Source: Pseudomonas fluorescens
GTDB lineage: Bacteria > Pseudomonadota > Gammaproteobacteria > Pseudomonadales > Pseudomonadaceae
Length of the DNA stretch: 64,000 nt
NCBI RefSeq assembly: GCF_001708445.1
Contig: NZ_CP015637.1
Location: forward strand, 1,613,001 to 1,677,000
Direction: 5' to 3'
The notes beneath the pieces are model-generated. The model saw only the letters and a list, made by a program, of their open reading frames with translations, made no database searches and was not told the origin of the DNA. Each line of letters begins with the position of its first letter. Position 1 is the stretch's first letter. Below are positions 15,799 to 54,922 of the stretch, piece after piece. The position numbers and the translations under genes were made by a program.

Positions 15799-15969
15799 GC
15801 GCCTCATAGCAGTGCGCCGGCGCACCCGCGTGGCGCACACCCCCCGCTTCTACGCCCTCCTCTCCCGCCCGCCCGGCTGAACAGCCGGGCATCGAAGCCA
15901 CTTGGCACGACTCTCGCTTTATCTCTTGCGTGCAGGATTGATACAGGTTCGCGGCACCACAATTTGCAA

Positions 15970-16068
15970 TGGCCGACTAGGGTTCCGGCTCGCGAAAAGC
16001 GAGTGGCTGGTCCGAGAGTTGGCGACCTCCAGTTGAGGTTACACGGCGGGATAAAAGCCCGGGAGACA
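15970..16068 (+). promoter_or_regulatory. Guanidine-I (ykkC) riboswitch
   Basis: Contains the three hallmark conserved blocks of the ykkC/guanidine-I aptamer in order: CTAGGGTTCCG (15977-15987), GGTCCGAGAG (16009-16018) and ACACGGCGGGATAAAAGCCC (16041-16060) followed by GGGAG. The first stem-loop CTCGC-GAAAA-GCGAG is plain. The element lies 60 bases upstream of the first gene of an operon for guanidine uptake and carboxylation, as expected from the known class. A short CACCG/CGGTG hairpin follows, but without a U-tract, so translational control is possible. Confidence 0.93.
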
Positions 16069-20412: not shown

Positions 20413-20476
20413 AACCACACACTGCGGACGACCGCAGTGCTCCCTCACTTTGCGGGACGGCCCGCAGGGTTTTGCC

Positions 20477-28946: not shown

Positions 28947-29186
28947 CTACGCGGCTCGGTCCACGCGGTCCTGAACAGCCTCGACCAGCAGCAGGCCCAG
29001 TTCAATCATTTGCTCAATGGCCAGGGCCAGGTAGCGCTGTTGAGAGGGCAGGCTTTCGACGAACTCGTGGGTCATGGCACCTGCACCGGCGATGGTTTCG
29101 TAGGCGTTGGCGAGCAGCGCTTGAGTGTCGATTTCGGGACGGACGCTGAACAGTTTTACGGCAGGGTTGCATGAATCAGTACACAT
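28947..29186 (-). CDS. DUF6124-type small protein under C4-like RNA control
   Basis: A 79-residue acidic helical protein. The core FSVRPEIDTQALLANAYETI and the AIEQMIELGLLLVEAVQDR C-terminus parallel those of the gene at 54099-54389 (VSPNIDSETLLANAAENLAS; GIQQLIDLSALLVSRAQEH), so the two are paralogues. I associate them with the DUF6124/DUF3077-like pseudomonad family; function unknown. Its Shine-Dalgarno (GAGG, 29195-29198) overlaps a segment complementary to a loop of the C4-like RNA just upstream, suggesting translational repression. Confidence 0.8.
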   Translation of the reverse strand: MCTDSCNPAVKLFSVRPEIDTQALLANAYETIAGAGAMTHEFVESLPSQQRYLALAIEQMIELGLLLVEAVQDRVDRAA

Positions 29187-29228
29187 CTGTTGATCCTCGT
29201 TAGGGACCGCATACCAGAGCTACTAAAC
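29187..29228 (-). promoter_or_regulatory. Target sites a and b of the C4-like RNA, copy 1
   Basis: In the minus-strand mRNA, site a is TTTAGTAG (29221-29228 region, plus strand CTACTAAAC 29220-29228) and site b is GGATCAAC (plus strand GTTGATCC 29189-29196), the latter overlapping the Shine-Dalgarno of the downstream gene. They match loops a' (29252-29258) and b' (29265-29272) of the adjacent RNA by 7 and 8 pairs, the second with one G-U. Confidence 0.7.
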
Positions 29229-29231
29229 AAT

Positions 29232-29313
29232 GGGTGGCGGCTGTACGCAGGTTAGTAGACCGGCGAATCAACGAAACCGGCGCGCCCGAAGACGCCCTGC
29301 GTGCAGCCACCAT
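29232..29313 (-). ncRNA. C4-like antisense RNA, copy 1
   Basis: Read on the minus strand: a long outer stem (ATGGTGGCTGCACGCAGG with CCTGCGTACAGCCGCCACCC), an inner hairpin GGCG-TCTTCGGGCG-CGCC and two variable loops, b' CGTTGATTC and a' CTACTAA. This matches the C4 antisense RNA architecture of phages P1/P7, in which two loops pair with sites around a downstream ribosome-binding site. The same framework with different loops recurs at 54440-54518. Assigned from structure and complementarity by eye, not by covariance search. Confidence 0.75.
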
Positions 29314-29329
29314 AAGAGCAGCTGTACGC

Positions 29330-29375
29330 CGTTGATCGTATCGGGCTACTAAACCCGACCGCTGATGGGCAGCGG
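29330..29375 (-). promoter_or_regulatory. 5' module repeating sites a and b, C4-like copy 1
   Basis: Upstream of the RNA in the transcript, a hairpin TCGGG/CCCGA (29341-29358) displays TTTAGTAG in its loop, and GATCAACG lies beside it (29330-29337), so both target sequences are present a second time 5' of the antisense core. A preceding hairpin CCGCTG/CAGCGG occupies 29359-29375. This recalls the seqA-seqB-seqC layout of phage P4 immunity RNA. Confidence 0.6.
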
Positions 29376-29589
29376 CTGACGAACCTTAAAGAGGTCGCCC
29401 AAGGCGCACAACTCGGACGAGTCTGATCGTTATGTAGGCAATGCCGCAAGGTTAAAACCCATGCTCAAAGCGTGAAGAAATTGAAGCTTTTGGCAACAAA
29501 TAGCCGTTGAAGACCGTTTGAATTCAATCTACCACCCACATCATTCTCGATAGCCCCACCCCACCAAAAATGCATACGCAGGTTTAATC

Positions 29590-33686: not shown

Positions 33687-34187
33687 ATGCGCTACGAATA
33701 CACACTCATGCCCTCCCCCGTCGGCGAGCTCACCCTGGTGGCGCGCAATGGCAAGCTCAGCGCCATCCTGTGGGAATGCGAGCGCGCCAACCGCGTACGC
33801 CTGGGTGAATTGCATGAGGCCAATCACAACCCGGTGTTGCTGGAAACCAAGCGCCAATTGCACGAATACTTCGCCGGCAGCCGTCACCGGTTCGAGCTGG
33901 AACTGGACTTCACCGGCACCGATTTTCAGAAATCGGTGTGGCAGGCATTGCTGACGATCCCTTTTGGCGAAACCCGCAGCTACAGCCAGATCGCCCAGCA
34001 GATTGGCAACCCGAAAGCCGTGCGTGCCGTGGGAGCCGCCAATGGTCGCAACCCGATCTCGATCATTGCTCCGTGCCATCGGGTGATCGGCGCGTCAGGC
34101 GGGCTGACCGGATTCGCTGGCGGGCTGGAGGCCAAGCAATACTTGCTCGCGCTGGAAGGCGGCGGCCAGGCCGAACTGGTGTTCTGA
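33687..34187 (+). CDS. ogt: Methylated-DNA-protein cysteine methyltransferase
   Basis: A 166-residue O6-alkylguanine-DNA alkyltransferase that repairs alkylated guanine by irreversible transfer to its own cysteine. The active-site motif PCHRV is intact with Cys at about residue 130, followed by GGLTGFAGGLEAKQYLL; DNA-binding helix region AVGAANGRNPISII precedes it. No Ada regulatory domain is attached, hence Ogt-type. Shine-Dalgarno GAGGAG at 33674-33679. Confidence 0.95.
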   Translation: MRYEYTLMPSPVGELTLVARNGKLSAILWECERANRVRLGELHEANHNPVLLETKRQLHEYFAGSRHRFELELDFTGTDFQKSVWQALLTIPFGETRSYSQIAQQIGNPKAVRAVGAANGRNPISIIAPCHRVIGASGGLTGFAGGLEAKQYLLALEGGGQAELVF

Positions 34188-34298
34188 AACGCGCCGCGGC
34201 AAAAACGTCCCCTTTGTTCAGGAGACCAGTTGTAAAAAGAAATTTCAGCACTGCGCTGCGGTCCATCACTTCATCACCTCCCCTTAAGGAAACCGGTC

Positions 34299-34724
34299 AT
34301 GAAATTCTCCGCAGTCTCACAATCCCTGTCCCGCTGGGCTGGCAGTGCCCGGACGTTCTACGCGGCCGTCGCGCTGATTTTCCTGTGGAGCCTGAGCGGG
34401 CCGTATTTCCACTACAACGACACCTGGCAACTGATCATCAATACCTCGACCACCATCATCACCTTCCTGATGGTGTTCCTGATCCAAAACACGCAAAACC
34501 GCGATAACGACATCCTGCACATCAAGATCGATGAACTGCTGCGCGTGTCCAAGGACGCGCAAAATGCCGTGTTGAGCCTGGACGGCCTGGACCGCAAAGA
34601 ACTGGAAAAGCTACGCCAGGAATACCGCAGCATTGGCAAAACCGGCAGCGTCAGCCTGAACAGCAGCTGCGGTCACGCTGCCGACGATGCGGCCCCCACC
34701 AAGACCGATTTGAACCAGGCATGA
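34299..34724 (+). CDS. Low-affinity iron permease family protein
   Basis: A 141-residue membrane protein with two hydrophobic segments (about residues 21-36 and 45-63) and the conserved FLIQNTQNRDNDILHIKIDE sequence of the bacterial low-affinity iron permease (FET4-like) family. Transport activity is not established for the bacterial members. A terminator hairpin immediately follows. Confidence 0.85.
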   Translation: MKFSAVSQSLSRWAGSARTFYAAVALIFLWSLSGPYFHYNDTWQLIINTSTTIITFLMVFLIQNTQNRDNDILHIKIDELLRVSKDAQNAVLSLDGLDRKELEKLRQEYRSIGKTGSVSLNSSCGHAADDAAPTKTDLNQA

Positions 34725-54098: not shown

Positions 54099-54389
54099 TC
54101 AGGCTGTGGCCGTGCTGGCGGTAGGCGCGACGTGCTCCTGGGCTCGGCTGACGAGTAGAGCGCTCAGGTCGATTAGCTGCTGGATGCCCAGGGCGATGGC
54201 GCGATGGGGTTCATCAAGGTCGAAAGCCAGGGTTGCGGCCATTTGGTTGGCGGACGCAAGGTTTTCGGCGGCGTTGGCCAGGAGCGTTTCGGAGTCGATG
54301 TTGGGGCTGACGAGGAAGACGTTGCCAGTGGGTTGCTCGGCTGGTGCAGCGTTTGAAGCATGTGGCGGGTTAGGTGTGACCTTGTACAT
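54099..54389 (-). CDS. DUF6124-type small protein under C4-like RNA control, paralogue 2
   Basis: A 96-residue protein with a Pro/Ala-rich N-terminus and the shared core VSPNIDSETLLANAAENLAS, ending in an acidic helix (GIQQLIDLSALLVSRAQEH). It is a paralogue of 28947-29186. Its Shine-Dalgarno GGAG (54397-54400) overlaps a nine-base sequence complementary to loop b' of the C4-like RNA at 54440-54518. Function unknown. Confidence 0.8.
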   Translation of the reverse strand: MYKVTPNPPHASNAAPAEQPTGNVFLVSPNIDSETLLANAAENLASANQMAATLAFDLDEPHRAIALGIQQLIDLSALLVSRAQEHVAPTASTATA

Positions 54390-54437
54390 GGCGGAGCTCC
54401 TTTAGCGTTTAAGGAACTGCCTATCTCACTTCCACAT
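54390..54437 (-). promoter_or_regulatory. Target sites a and b of the C4-like RNA, copy 2
   Basis: In the minus-strand mRNA, site a TGTGGAAG (plus strand 54429-54436) and site b GCTAAAGGA (plus strand 54398-54406) are fully complementary to loops a' (54460-54467) and b' (54474-54482). Site b includes the GGA of the Shine-Dalgarno for the gene starting at 54389. Confidence 0.75.
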
Positions 54438-54439
54438 GA

Positions 54440-54518
54440 GGGTGGCAGCTGTACGCAGGTGTGGAAGACCAGGGCTAAAGGACCCGGCGCACCGAAGTGC
54501 CCCGCGCACAGCCGCCAT
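54440..54518 (-). ncRNA. C4-like antisense RNA, copy 2
   Basis: Read on the minus strand: outer stem ATGGCGGCTGTGCGCGGG with CCTGCGTACAGCTGCCACCC, inner hairpin GGGCAC-TTCG-GTGCGCC, loops b' TCCTTTAGC and a' CTTCCACA. Framework shared with 29232-29313, but both loops are different and each has changed together with its own target. That compensatory pattern is the main evidence that the pairing is functional. Matches the known C4 antisense RNA architecture. Confidence 0.8.
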
Positions 54519-54574
54519 AACGCAATCATACAGACGTAAAAAAACGCCGGTAGATGTTTATGGACGATTGAGCG

Positions 54575-54623
54575 CCTTCAGCTTGGTCGGACTTCCACAT
54601 CCGGCCGCTGGGTTGTCAGCGGC
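54575..54623 (-). promoter_or_regulatory. 5' module repeating sites a and b, C4-like copy 2
   Basis: A hairpin CGGA/TCCG (54588-54603) displays TGTGGAAG, identical to target a, and GCTGAAGG (plus strand CCTTCAGC 54575-54582) can pair with loop b' with one G-U. A preceding hairpin GCCGCTG/CAGCGGC spans 54604-54623. Same order as copy 1 at 29330-29375. Confidence 0.6.
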
Positions 54624-54922
54624 TTGAGGAGGTTAGCTATGGGTGGTCTGAGGGGCAAGCCGAGAAAAGTGTGGGACATTTCCTAGAGATTTTGGTTTGG
54701 TCCCGAAGATAACTTTATTGCTTATCTGTCGTACCGGGGATGGATTGGAGCTATTAAACCTGTAGGCCTGACACCACGGTCACCACAGCCCCACCATCAA
54801 CTATCCGTACCACTTTCGTACCAACACCGATTCTAAACACTGGAAACCGACCCTTTTCTTTGCAGTCGGTGACAGACCTTGGCACTGCTATGCTTGGTTT
54901 TTTTCGAAACGAGTCGTCCACA

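Follow-up and report, generated by a model that had tools for sequence, protein, structure and literature searches.

Both C4-type elements found in the window, by which we mean the whole 64,000-nucleotide stretch of Pseudomonas fluorescens contig NZ_CP015637.1 (positions 1,613,001 to 1,677,000) that was analysed, belong to a large family of units in which an antisense RNA of the phage P1/P7 C4 type carries two loops that match targets in the leader of the gene directly downstream. We consider it very likely that each such unit is a chromosomal version of the phage C4 silencer acting on a small DUF6124, DUF3077 or Bro-N gene, address-specific in trans. The C4 family itself is known; the many-copy, privately addressed variant that appears to control DUF6124 genes is without description in the literature searched, outside which most subscription papers fall and in which no article dealing specifically with Pseudomonas C4 RNAs came up. 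That the RNAs are processed and act as silencers in Pseudomonas we infer by analogy with P1.

Table 1. Positions of the elements of the two C4 units in the window (bit scores are those of the Rfam models)
Feature	Positions	Strand	Remarks
Unit 2 promoter-like -35 (TTGCCC)	54653..54658	-	consensus match only
Unit 2 promoter-like -10 (TAACCT)	54630..54635	-	consensus match only
Unit 2 c4-a1b1 element (RF03163)	54584..54636	-	44.5 bits, just under the gathering score of 46.7
Unit 2 address copy a1 (TGTGGAAG)	54592..54599	-	sits in the loop of a hairpin in RF03163
Unit 2 address copy b1 (GCTGAAGG)	54575..54582	-	8 pairs with b', one of them G-U
Unit 2 C4 antisense RNA (RF01695)	54438..54522	-	65.8 bits
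Unit 2 loop b' (TCCTTTAGC)	54474..54482	-	9 pairs with b2
Unit 2 loop a' (CTTCCACA)	54460..54467	-	8 pairs with a2
Unit 2 target a2 (TGTGGAAG)	54429..54436	-	pairs with a'
Unit 2 target b2 (GCTAAAGGA)	54398..54406	-	overlaps AAGGAG ribosome-binding site
Unit 2 DUF6124 gene, 96 aa	54099..54389	-	PF19619, E 9.9e-25
Unit 1 promoter-like -35 (TTGTGC)	29406..29411	-	consensus match
Unit 1 promoter-like -10 (TAAGGT)	29383..29388	-	consensus match
Unit 1 c4-a1b1 element (RF03163)	29338..29389	-	48.5 bits, over the threshold of 46.7
Unit 1 C4 antisense RNA (RF01695)	29230..29317	-	77 bits
Unit 1 target a2 (TTAGTAG)	29220..29226	-	7 pairs with a' CTACTAA
Unit 1 target b2 (ATCAAC)	29189..29194	-	6 pairs with b' GTTGAT; immediately 5' of start codon
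Unit 1 DUF6124 gene, 79 aa	28947..29186	-	PF19619, E 6.6e-19

The two units share one plan (Table 1). In unit 2, the sigma-70-like site TTGCCC-17-TAACCT ends 30 nt upstream of a1, and the DUF6124 start codon lies at 54387-54389 on the minus strand. Unit 1 (28947-29411) repeats this plan with a different address, and its pairing (7 + 6) is weaker than that of unit 2 (8 + 9). The loop and target letters that the earlier note had given for the second copy, with 8 and 9 perfect pairs, are exact on the minus strand. The RNA it had placed at 54440-54518 is present as well, within a slightly wider Rfam match; the label 'C4-like' had the type right but was too cautious, as both RNAs score above the Rfam threshold and are true C4 members. 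Its two-part code of loops and targets also stands, except that each unit holds three copies of the address, with a1 and b1 lying upstream of the RNA as well. Near unit 1, a gene at 29590-29832 matches 'probable addiction module antidote' (PF21716). Elsewhere in the window, guanidine-I and guanidine-II riboswitch aptamers (15966-16067 and 20420-20464) are found less than 5 kb apart.

Membership was judged on several features. The curated covariance model of RF01695 has a threshold of 45 bits, which both window RNAs exceed; a' and b' are complementary to a2 and b2, b2 sits at the ribosome-binding site, the closing stem of the C4 has a GG close to its 5' end, and the upstream a1 and b1 copies are there, b1 being weaker than a1. 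The genes are DUF6124 members (86.7 and 68 bits, as compared with a cut-off of 27 bits for PF19619). By contrast, the window elements reach only 34.0 and 28.8 bits with the isrK model (RF01394, threshold 50 bits) and are not members of that family, and the immI-type control of icd and ant known from P1/P7 is not what is seen, the window cargo being DUF6124.

The window's own genome has six C4 RNAs, five of them directly before DUF6124 genes and the sixth before a DUF3077 gene; conversely, 5/7 DUF6124 matches in this genome are located behind a C4 and the other 2/7 are without an adjoining C4 match. Four other fully counted genomes have 47, 36 (one below threshold), 30 and 22 copies. Across 149 sampled Pseudomonas genomes, C4 occurs in at least 138 (at least 137 over threshold), DUF6124 in at least 118 and DUF3077 in 117, and all of the 52 named loci homologous to the window protein are from Pseudomonas. 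Outside the genus, C4 is sparse, with at least 7/185 genomes of the class and at least 20/145 of the order being positive, the window's own genome included in both counts; apart from it, positive genomes have 1 to 6 matches each among the matches listed. Within the limits of this sampling, the expansion is thus one of this genus. A promoter-like site scores at least 8 in 96/110 units as opposed to 18.9% of shuffles, and in 89 of those 96 units it lies 30-32 nt from a1.

The covariation of loops and targets that the earlier note expected across leaders of the family is borne out. A total of 140 C4 units from five genomes, the window's own included, were assembled after one sub-threshold C4 match in genome G010 had been dropped; 116 of them have a recognisable start codon at a distance of 40-70 nt from the C4, and the other 24 were counted only in the 140-unit set. 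With uninterrupted runs of at least 7 nt for a' and 6 nt for b', cut-offs picked after inspecting the distributions, a' matches its own a2 in 107/116 units, compared with 115/2320 shuffled targets and 976/13340 non-self pairs, and b' matches its own b2 in 93/116, compared with 308/2320 and 1171/13340. When the start-codon filter is lifted, self matches amount to 127/140 for a' (5.8% for non-self) and 112/140 for b' (17.9%). Both loops match their own target in 110/140 units versus 197/19460 non-self pairs; the two-loop self match fails in the other 30. The upstream copy a1 matches, with runs of at least 7 nt, in 110/116 units and in 110/1381 sampled non-self pairs. The weakest element is b1, for which runs of at least 6 nt are found in 94/116 units and in as many as 40.6% of non-self pairs, and runs of at least 7 nt in 56/116 and 12.1%, respectively.

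The code extends beyond the five genomes. Viral contigs provided 57 loci which, less 9 with no C4 found and 9 duplicates, left 39 distinct units; here a' matches its own target in 38 and b' in 33, the non-self rates being 16.3% and 12.8%. For 34 of the 41 C4 matches outside the genus, namely those with a locus given, self matches number 29 (a'), 29 (b') and 33 (a1), and non-self matches 35, 189 and 90 of 1122, respectively. As a positive control, the same script applied to phage P1 returned a1 = a2 = TTGACAG, b1 GTTAGTG and b2 GTTAGTGA, in the same geometry. In five viral contigs, two DUF6124 genes each are present on opposite strands, about 17-18 kb apart (L326/L346, L332/L338, L350/L364, L355/L365 and L366/L367).

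How private are these addresses within one cell? When duplex energies were computed for the loops only, the own target was the best in the genome for 99/116 C4 RNAs and the own C4 the best for 92/116 targets, with 84 units holding in both directions. The mean energy was -23.3 kcal/mol for self and -12.7 kcal/mol for same-genome non-self pairs, of which 16/3534 are predicted to reach the median self energy and 13/3534 match at both loops. The narrowing to loops came after a ranking with wider pieces, in which self came first in only 25/116; that ranking was replaced, because the wide pieces held conserved stem letters and were misleading. Units 1 and 2 of the window do not cross-match (-10.5 and -10.2 kcal/mol versus -18.1 and -25.4 kcal/mol for self). 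Loops and targets covary and cross-matches are rare; thus, the 'private codes' of the earlier note are right at the sequence level. Its stronger proposal, an orthogonal system in which each RNA would silence only its own gene, is supported in part only: these two units do not match each other and cross-matches are rare in the family, but they do occur. One case is found in the genome of the window itself, where the C4 at 5153950 has the same loop a' as copy 1 and a stronger predicted duplex with the copy 1 target (-19.6 kcal/mol) than with its own (-16.8 kcal/mol). The predicted orthogonality of C4 addresses is, in short, strong but imperfect. A permutation test for avoidance of cross-matches was significant in genome G062 only (2 versus 8.3 expected, P 0.0115), avoidance being absent in the other 4/5 genomes; therefore, no general claim of active avoidance is made.

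The comparison of paralogs with orthologs bears on how the addresses diverged. Among paralogs, the comparison was limited to pairs with a self match in each of the two units (11 and 25 pairs). At ORF identities of 0.90 or more, a' is shared in 2/11 pairs and a both-way cross-match occurs in 0/11; at identities of 0.80-0.90, a' is shared in 12/25 and a cross-match in at least one direction occurs in 4/25. Stepwise change is seen between the units at 1719731 and 2352334 of genome G057, with ORFs that are 98% identical: a1, a' and a2 all differ, b2 and loop b' are unchanged, and there are further differences, most of them in the 3' strand of the C4. A similar change is seen between 1146187 and 5705039 of G010, but there b' matches its own target over no more than 5 nt. 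In the pairs with ORF identity of at least 0.90, spacer identity is 0.63 and that of the loop hairpin 0.72. Divergence of the spacer is therefore no smaller than that of the hairpin, and the loops do not change faster than the sequence around them.

Same-site orthologs were placed by the 3' flank alone, with two loci excluded (L194, which has the same a' but no common flank, and L210, which has no flank sequence). All 14 C4-bearing loci thus placed at the unit 2 site have the core of a' CTTCCACA, and the unit 2 flank is found in 0/20 loci carrying other a' loops. Taking all 16 loci with the unit 2 a', 56/120 pairs cross-match both ways, at a median ORF identity of 0.78 (91 pairs measured). In eight orthologs having the b' loop of unit 2, TCCTTTAGC, it is always accompanied by the b1 letters of unit 2, GCTGAAGG, and in eight others b' is one base shorter, b1 is GCTAAGA and b2 is TTAAGGA, replacing CTAAAGGA. 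The contrast between near-identical paralogs (a' shared in 2/11) and same-site loci of other species (14/14) suggests that coexistence in one cell favours address change, with the caveats that the orthologs are non-independent, that the window protein served as the query for these loci, that ORF conversion may inflate paralog identity and so exaggerate the contrast, and that the spacer divergence and the permutation result given above give no general sign of it.

It is plausible, although we hold it tentatively, that Pseudomonas chromosomes operate a many-channel RNA addressing system, with tens of C4 switches per cell bearing private addresses in three copies, coexistence selecting for new addresses after duplication, and near-identical genes being independently controlled. 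Privacy might instead have come about by drift, in which case the match within each unit is maintained, there is no selection against cross-talk, and some paralogs do interact. The finding of avoidance in no more than one genome of five, the spacers that diverge as much as the loops, the preference predicted for the C4 at 5153950, and the sharing of a' and cross-matching at ORF identities of 0.80-0.90 all sit well with drift. What speaks against it is the 2/11 versus 14/14 contrast, read with the caveats above, and the duplicates that differ jointly at a1, a' and a2; drift alone is a fair possibility, though less likely than not.

With respect to cargo, the 116 C4-led genes comprise 86 DUF6124, 15 DUF3077 and 6 Bro-N genes, and one of the Bro-N cargoes is similar to phage anti-repressor Ant families. 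The earlier note had assigned DUF6124-type genes as cargo, which holds for both window units and falls short for the family, where other cargoes occur. Behind C4 RNAs outside the genus we found KilA-N, Bro-N and a SymE-type gene. The last (L252; PF08845, E 7.4e-13) is led by a unit with a1, a2 and b2 matching, and its product differs from phage antirepressors. The two window proteins have no match up to E 0.1 in NCBIfam, PADLOC or PHROGs, and no convincing hit came from searching solved structures with the DUF6124 family profile (best E 0.55). The first codons of C4-led genes may be part of the regulatory leader. An N-terminal motif, [TVI]P[ND]PP, is found within the first 16 residues of 74/116 C4-led ORFs (e.g., window 54360-54389), in 0/6 Bro-N-like ORFs of this set and in 0/14 of the C4-less alleles described below; one Bro-N-like ORF elsewhere (L287) has it by eye.

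DUF6124 genes are under purifying selection, with a median dN/dS of 0.24 in 15 C4-bearing orthologs (the ORF of L224 is truncated). Of the 52 homologous loci that the window protein retrieved, 14 lack a C4 although the gene at the unit 2 site is intact (L196, L200, L201, L211-L219, L221 and L223). In these alleles, a1 and b1 are directly 5' of the DUF6124 gene, with neither the C4 nor a2/b2 present, and the median dN/dS is 0.31. In 9 of the 14 genomes, no C4 with both loops matching was present among the matches listed, using a pattern that allows up to 2 differences.

These alleles bear on whether the units are toxin-antitoxin-like, with C4 as the RNA antitoxin of a toxic DUF6124 protein. Such an arrangement would agree with an antisense RNA that is directed at the ribosome-binding site of a short gene, and with the C4 that leads a SymE-type toxin gene in L252. 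Nevertheless, intact genes persist under constraint at 14 sites without the C4, most of them in genomes with no matching C4 among the matches listed, which argues against a lethal DUF6124 product and weakens the toxin reading, and the window proteins have no PADLOC match; we regard it as improbable. An origin as remnants of prophage immunity regions, functionless today, is suggested by the Bro-N antirepressor cargo in 6/116 units and by C4-DUF6124 units in viral contigs and a small Pseudomonas phage record. It is unlikely, however, given that self matching persists in 110/140 units, that the C4-bearing orthologs are constrained as noted above, and that a Pfam scan of 11 neighbouring window genes named no phage structural gene.

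Returning to the silencer reading, we propose that one promoter would transcribe a1b1, the C4, a2b2 and the gene, in this order; the order and the promoter-like site are observed, the transcription presumed. The C4 would fold independently and then be cut out, by RNase P in P1 and presumably in a like manner in Pseudomonas. By analogy with P1, its loop a' would pair with a2 and its loop b' with b2, which lies at the ribosome-binding site, whereby translation would be blocked. As the three address copies change jointly, a pattern read from the letters, each C4 would mainly recognise its own unit. The a1b1 RNA is a probable decoy that would bind the C4 of its own unit and relieve silencing, as the sRNA IsrK may in the Salmonella prophage Gifsy-1. 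Finally, sister copies in one cell may favour address change after duplication, a step with moderate support that recalls plasmid incompatibility and phage heteroimmunity. For P1/P7, it has been published that the C4 RNA is processed by RNase P and covers the ribosome-binding site partially (PMC5320573), and that C4 is required for ant repression (PMC8198154).

Folding predictions agree with a separately acting RNA. When C4 is folded alone, at least 12 of the 17 closing-stem pairs are kept in 116/116 units, and in the minimum-energy fold of C4 plus leader they are kept in 107/116. In the latter fold, the a'-a2 helix is formed in cis in 0/116 and the b'-b2 helix in 5/116, with mean unpaired probabilities of 0.85 for a' and 0.71 for the b' loop. 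The intact C4 domain, the open a' and the missing cis a'-a2 helix favour a separate trans RNA over a simple cis hairpin. That the leader merely folds on itself and so masks the ribosome-binding site, without any separate antisense RNA and with an only apparent orthogonality, is very improbable: the order of elements would let the a'-a2 (inside) and b'-b2 (outside) helices nest in one molecule, but in the predicted folds the first never forms and the second rarely, the C4 fold scores over the Rfam threshold, and the P1 C4 has been published as a processed antisense RNA (PMC5320573, PMC8198154).

Two further features of the leaders were noted. A terminator-like site between a1b1 and C4 is found in 25/116 units versus 5.3% of shuffles, by a strict rule that misses the T-run of window unit 2; attenuation by a competing hairpin adjoining b1 is an idea prompted by two G057 units. 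The motif G[CT]TCC...GGA[GA] occurs in the leaders of 40/116 units versus 1.6% of shuffles, and could put b2 in the loop of a hairpin including the ribosome-binding site.

The decoy role of a1b1 is suggested by Gifsy-1 (L281, NC_010392). At 34131-34329, IsrK overlaps c4-a1b1 and a C4 match (69 bits) comes next, with an antirepressor-like gene downstream of both; the C4 match falls within the interval named orf45/STnc1160 in PMC4825925. In that report, IsrK supplied in trans raised anrP translation 139-fold and paired with the orf45 region, which the authors explain by IsrK opening the orf45 ribosome-binding site (PMC4825925). They also describe that constitutive co-expression of the downstream RNA led to stronger IsrK-mediated growth arrest (PMC4825925), an observation that does not simply fit the decoy reading. 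The main text of PMC4825925 contains none of the terms 'C4 RNA', 'phage P1', 'bacteriophage P1' and 'Rfam'.

If the silencer reading is right, many DUF6124 and DUF3077 genes are probably controlled by a C4, and IsrK can be re-read as the a1b1 decoy of a C4. The family also offers many naturally occurring pairs of RNA loop and target, from which the rules of specificity can be derived.

Among known systems, the closest is the C4 antisense RNA of P1/P7, known as a phage immunity device (immI region), which has the same fold and a'/b' loops, a1/b1 upstream, a2/b2 downstream and b2 at the ribosome-binding site. The Pseudomonas units differ in being chromosomal, in reaching up to 47 copies per genome with many addresses side by side, and in having DUF6124/DUF3077 instead of icd-ant as cargo. 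A 4-nt difference is reported to make the P1 and P7 C4 RNAs mutually specific (PMC5320573); as the window RNAs are true members of the C4 family, the address principle is not new. IsrK of Gifsy-1 (RF01394) resembles the Pseudomonas units in its c4-a1b1 overlap followed by a C4 and an antirepressor-like gene, but its partner is given as 'orf45'/STnc1160 and compared with the P4 CI RNA in PMC4825925. The P4 CI RNA (seqA, seqC), according to the same source, is similarly a processed RNA that pairs with copies up- and downstream of itself; it is described, however, for transcription termination, and the likeness is taken from that description (PMC4825925). C4 motifs in Pseudomonadales, among others, had been predicted by Weinberg et al. 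2010, as cited in PMC5320573. The nearest precedent for multiplicity is Acinetobacter baumannii AB5075, where one chromosome has 21 C4-like 'Group 1' sRNAs, most with an upstream stem-loop region and with varied a' loops (PMC5320573), much as in Pseudomonas. The two differ in that the targets appear to be left open in that report, with host mRNAs or phages suggested (PMC5320573), whereas the Pseudomonas targets are mostly directly downstream, and it is directly downstream of each RNA that the targets of the Acinetobacter C4-like RNAs should be looked for.
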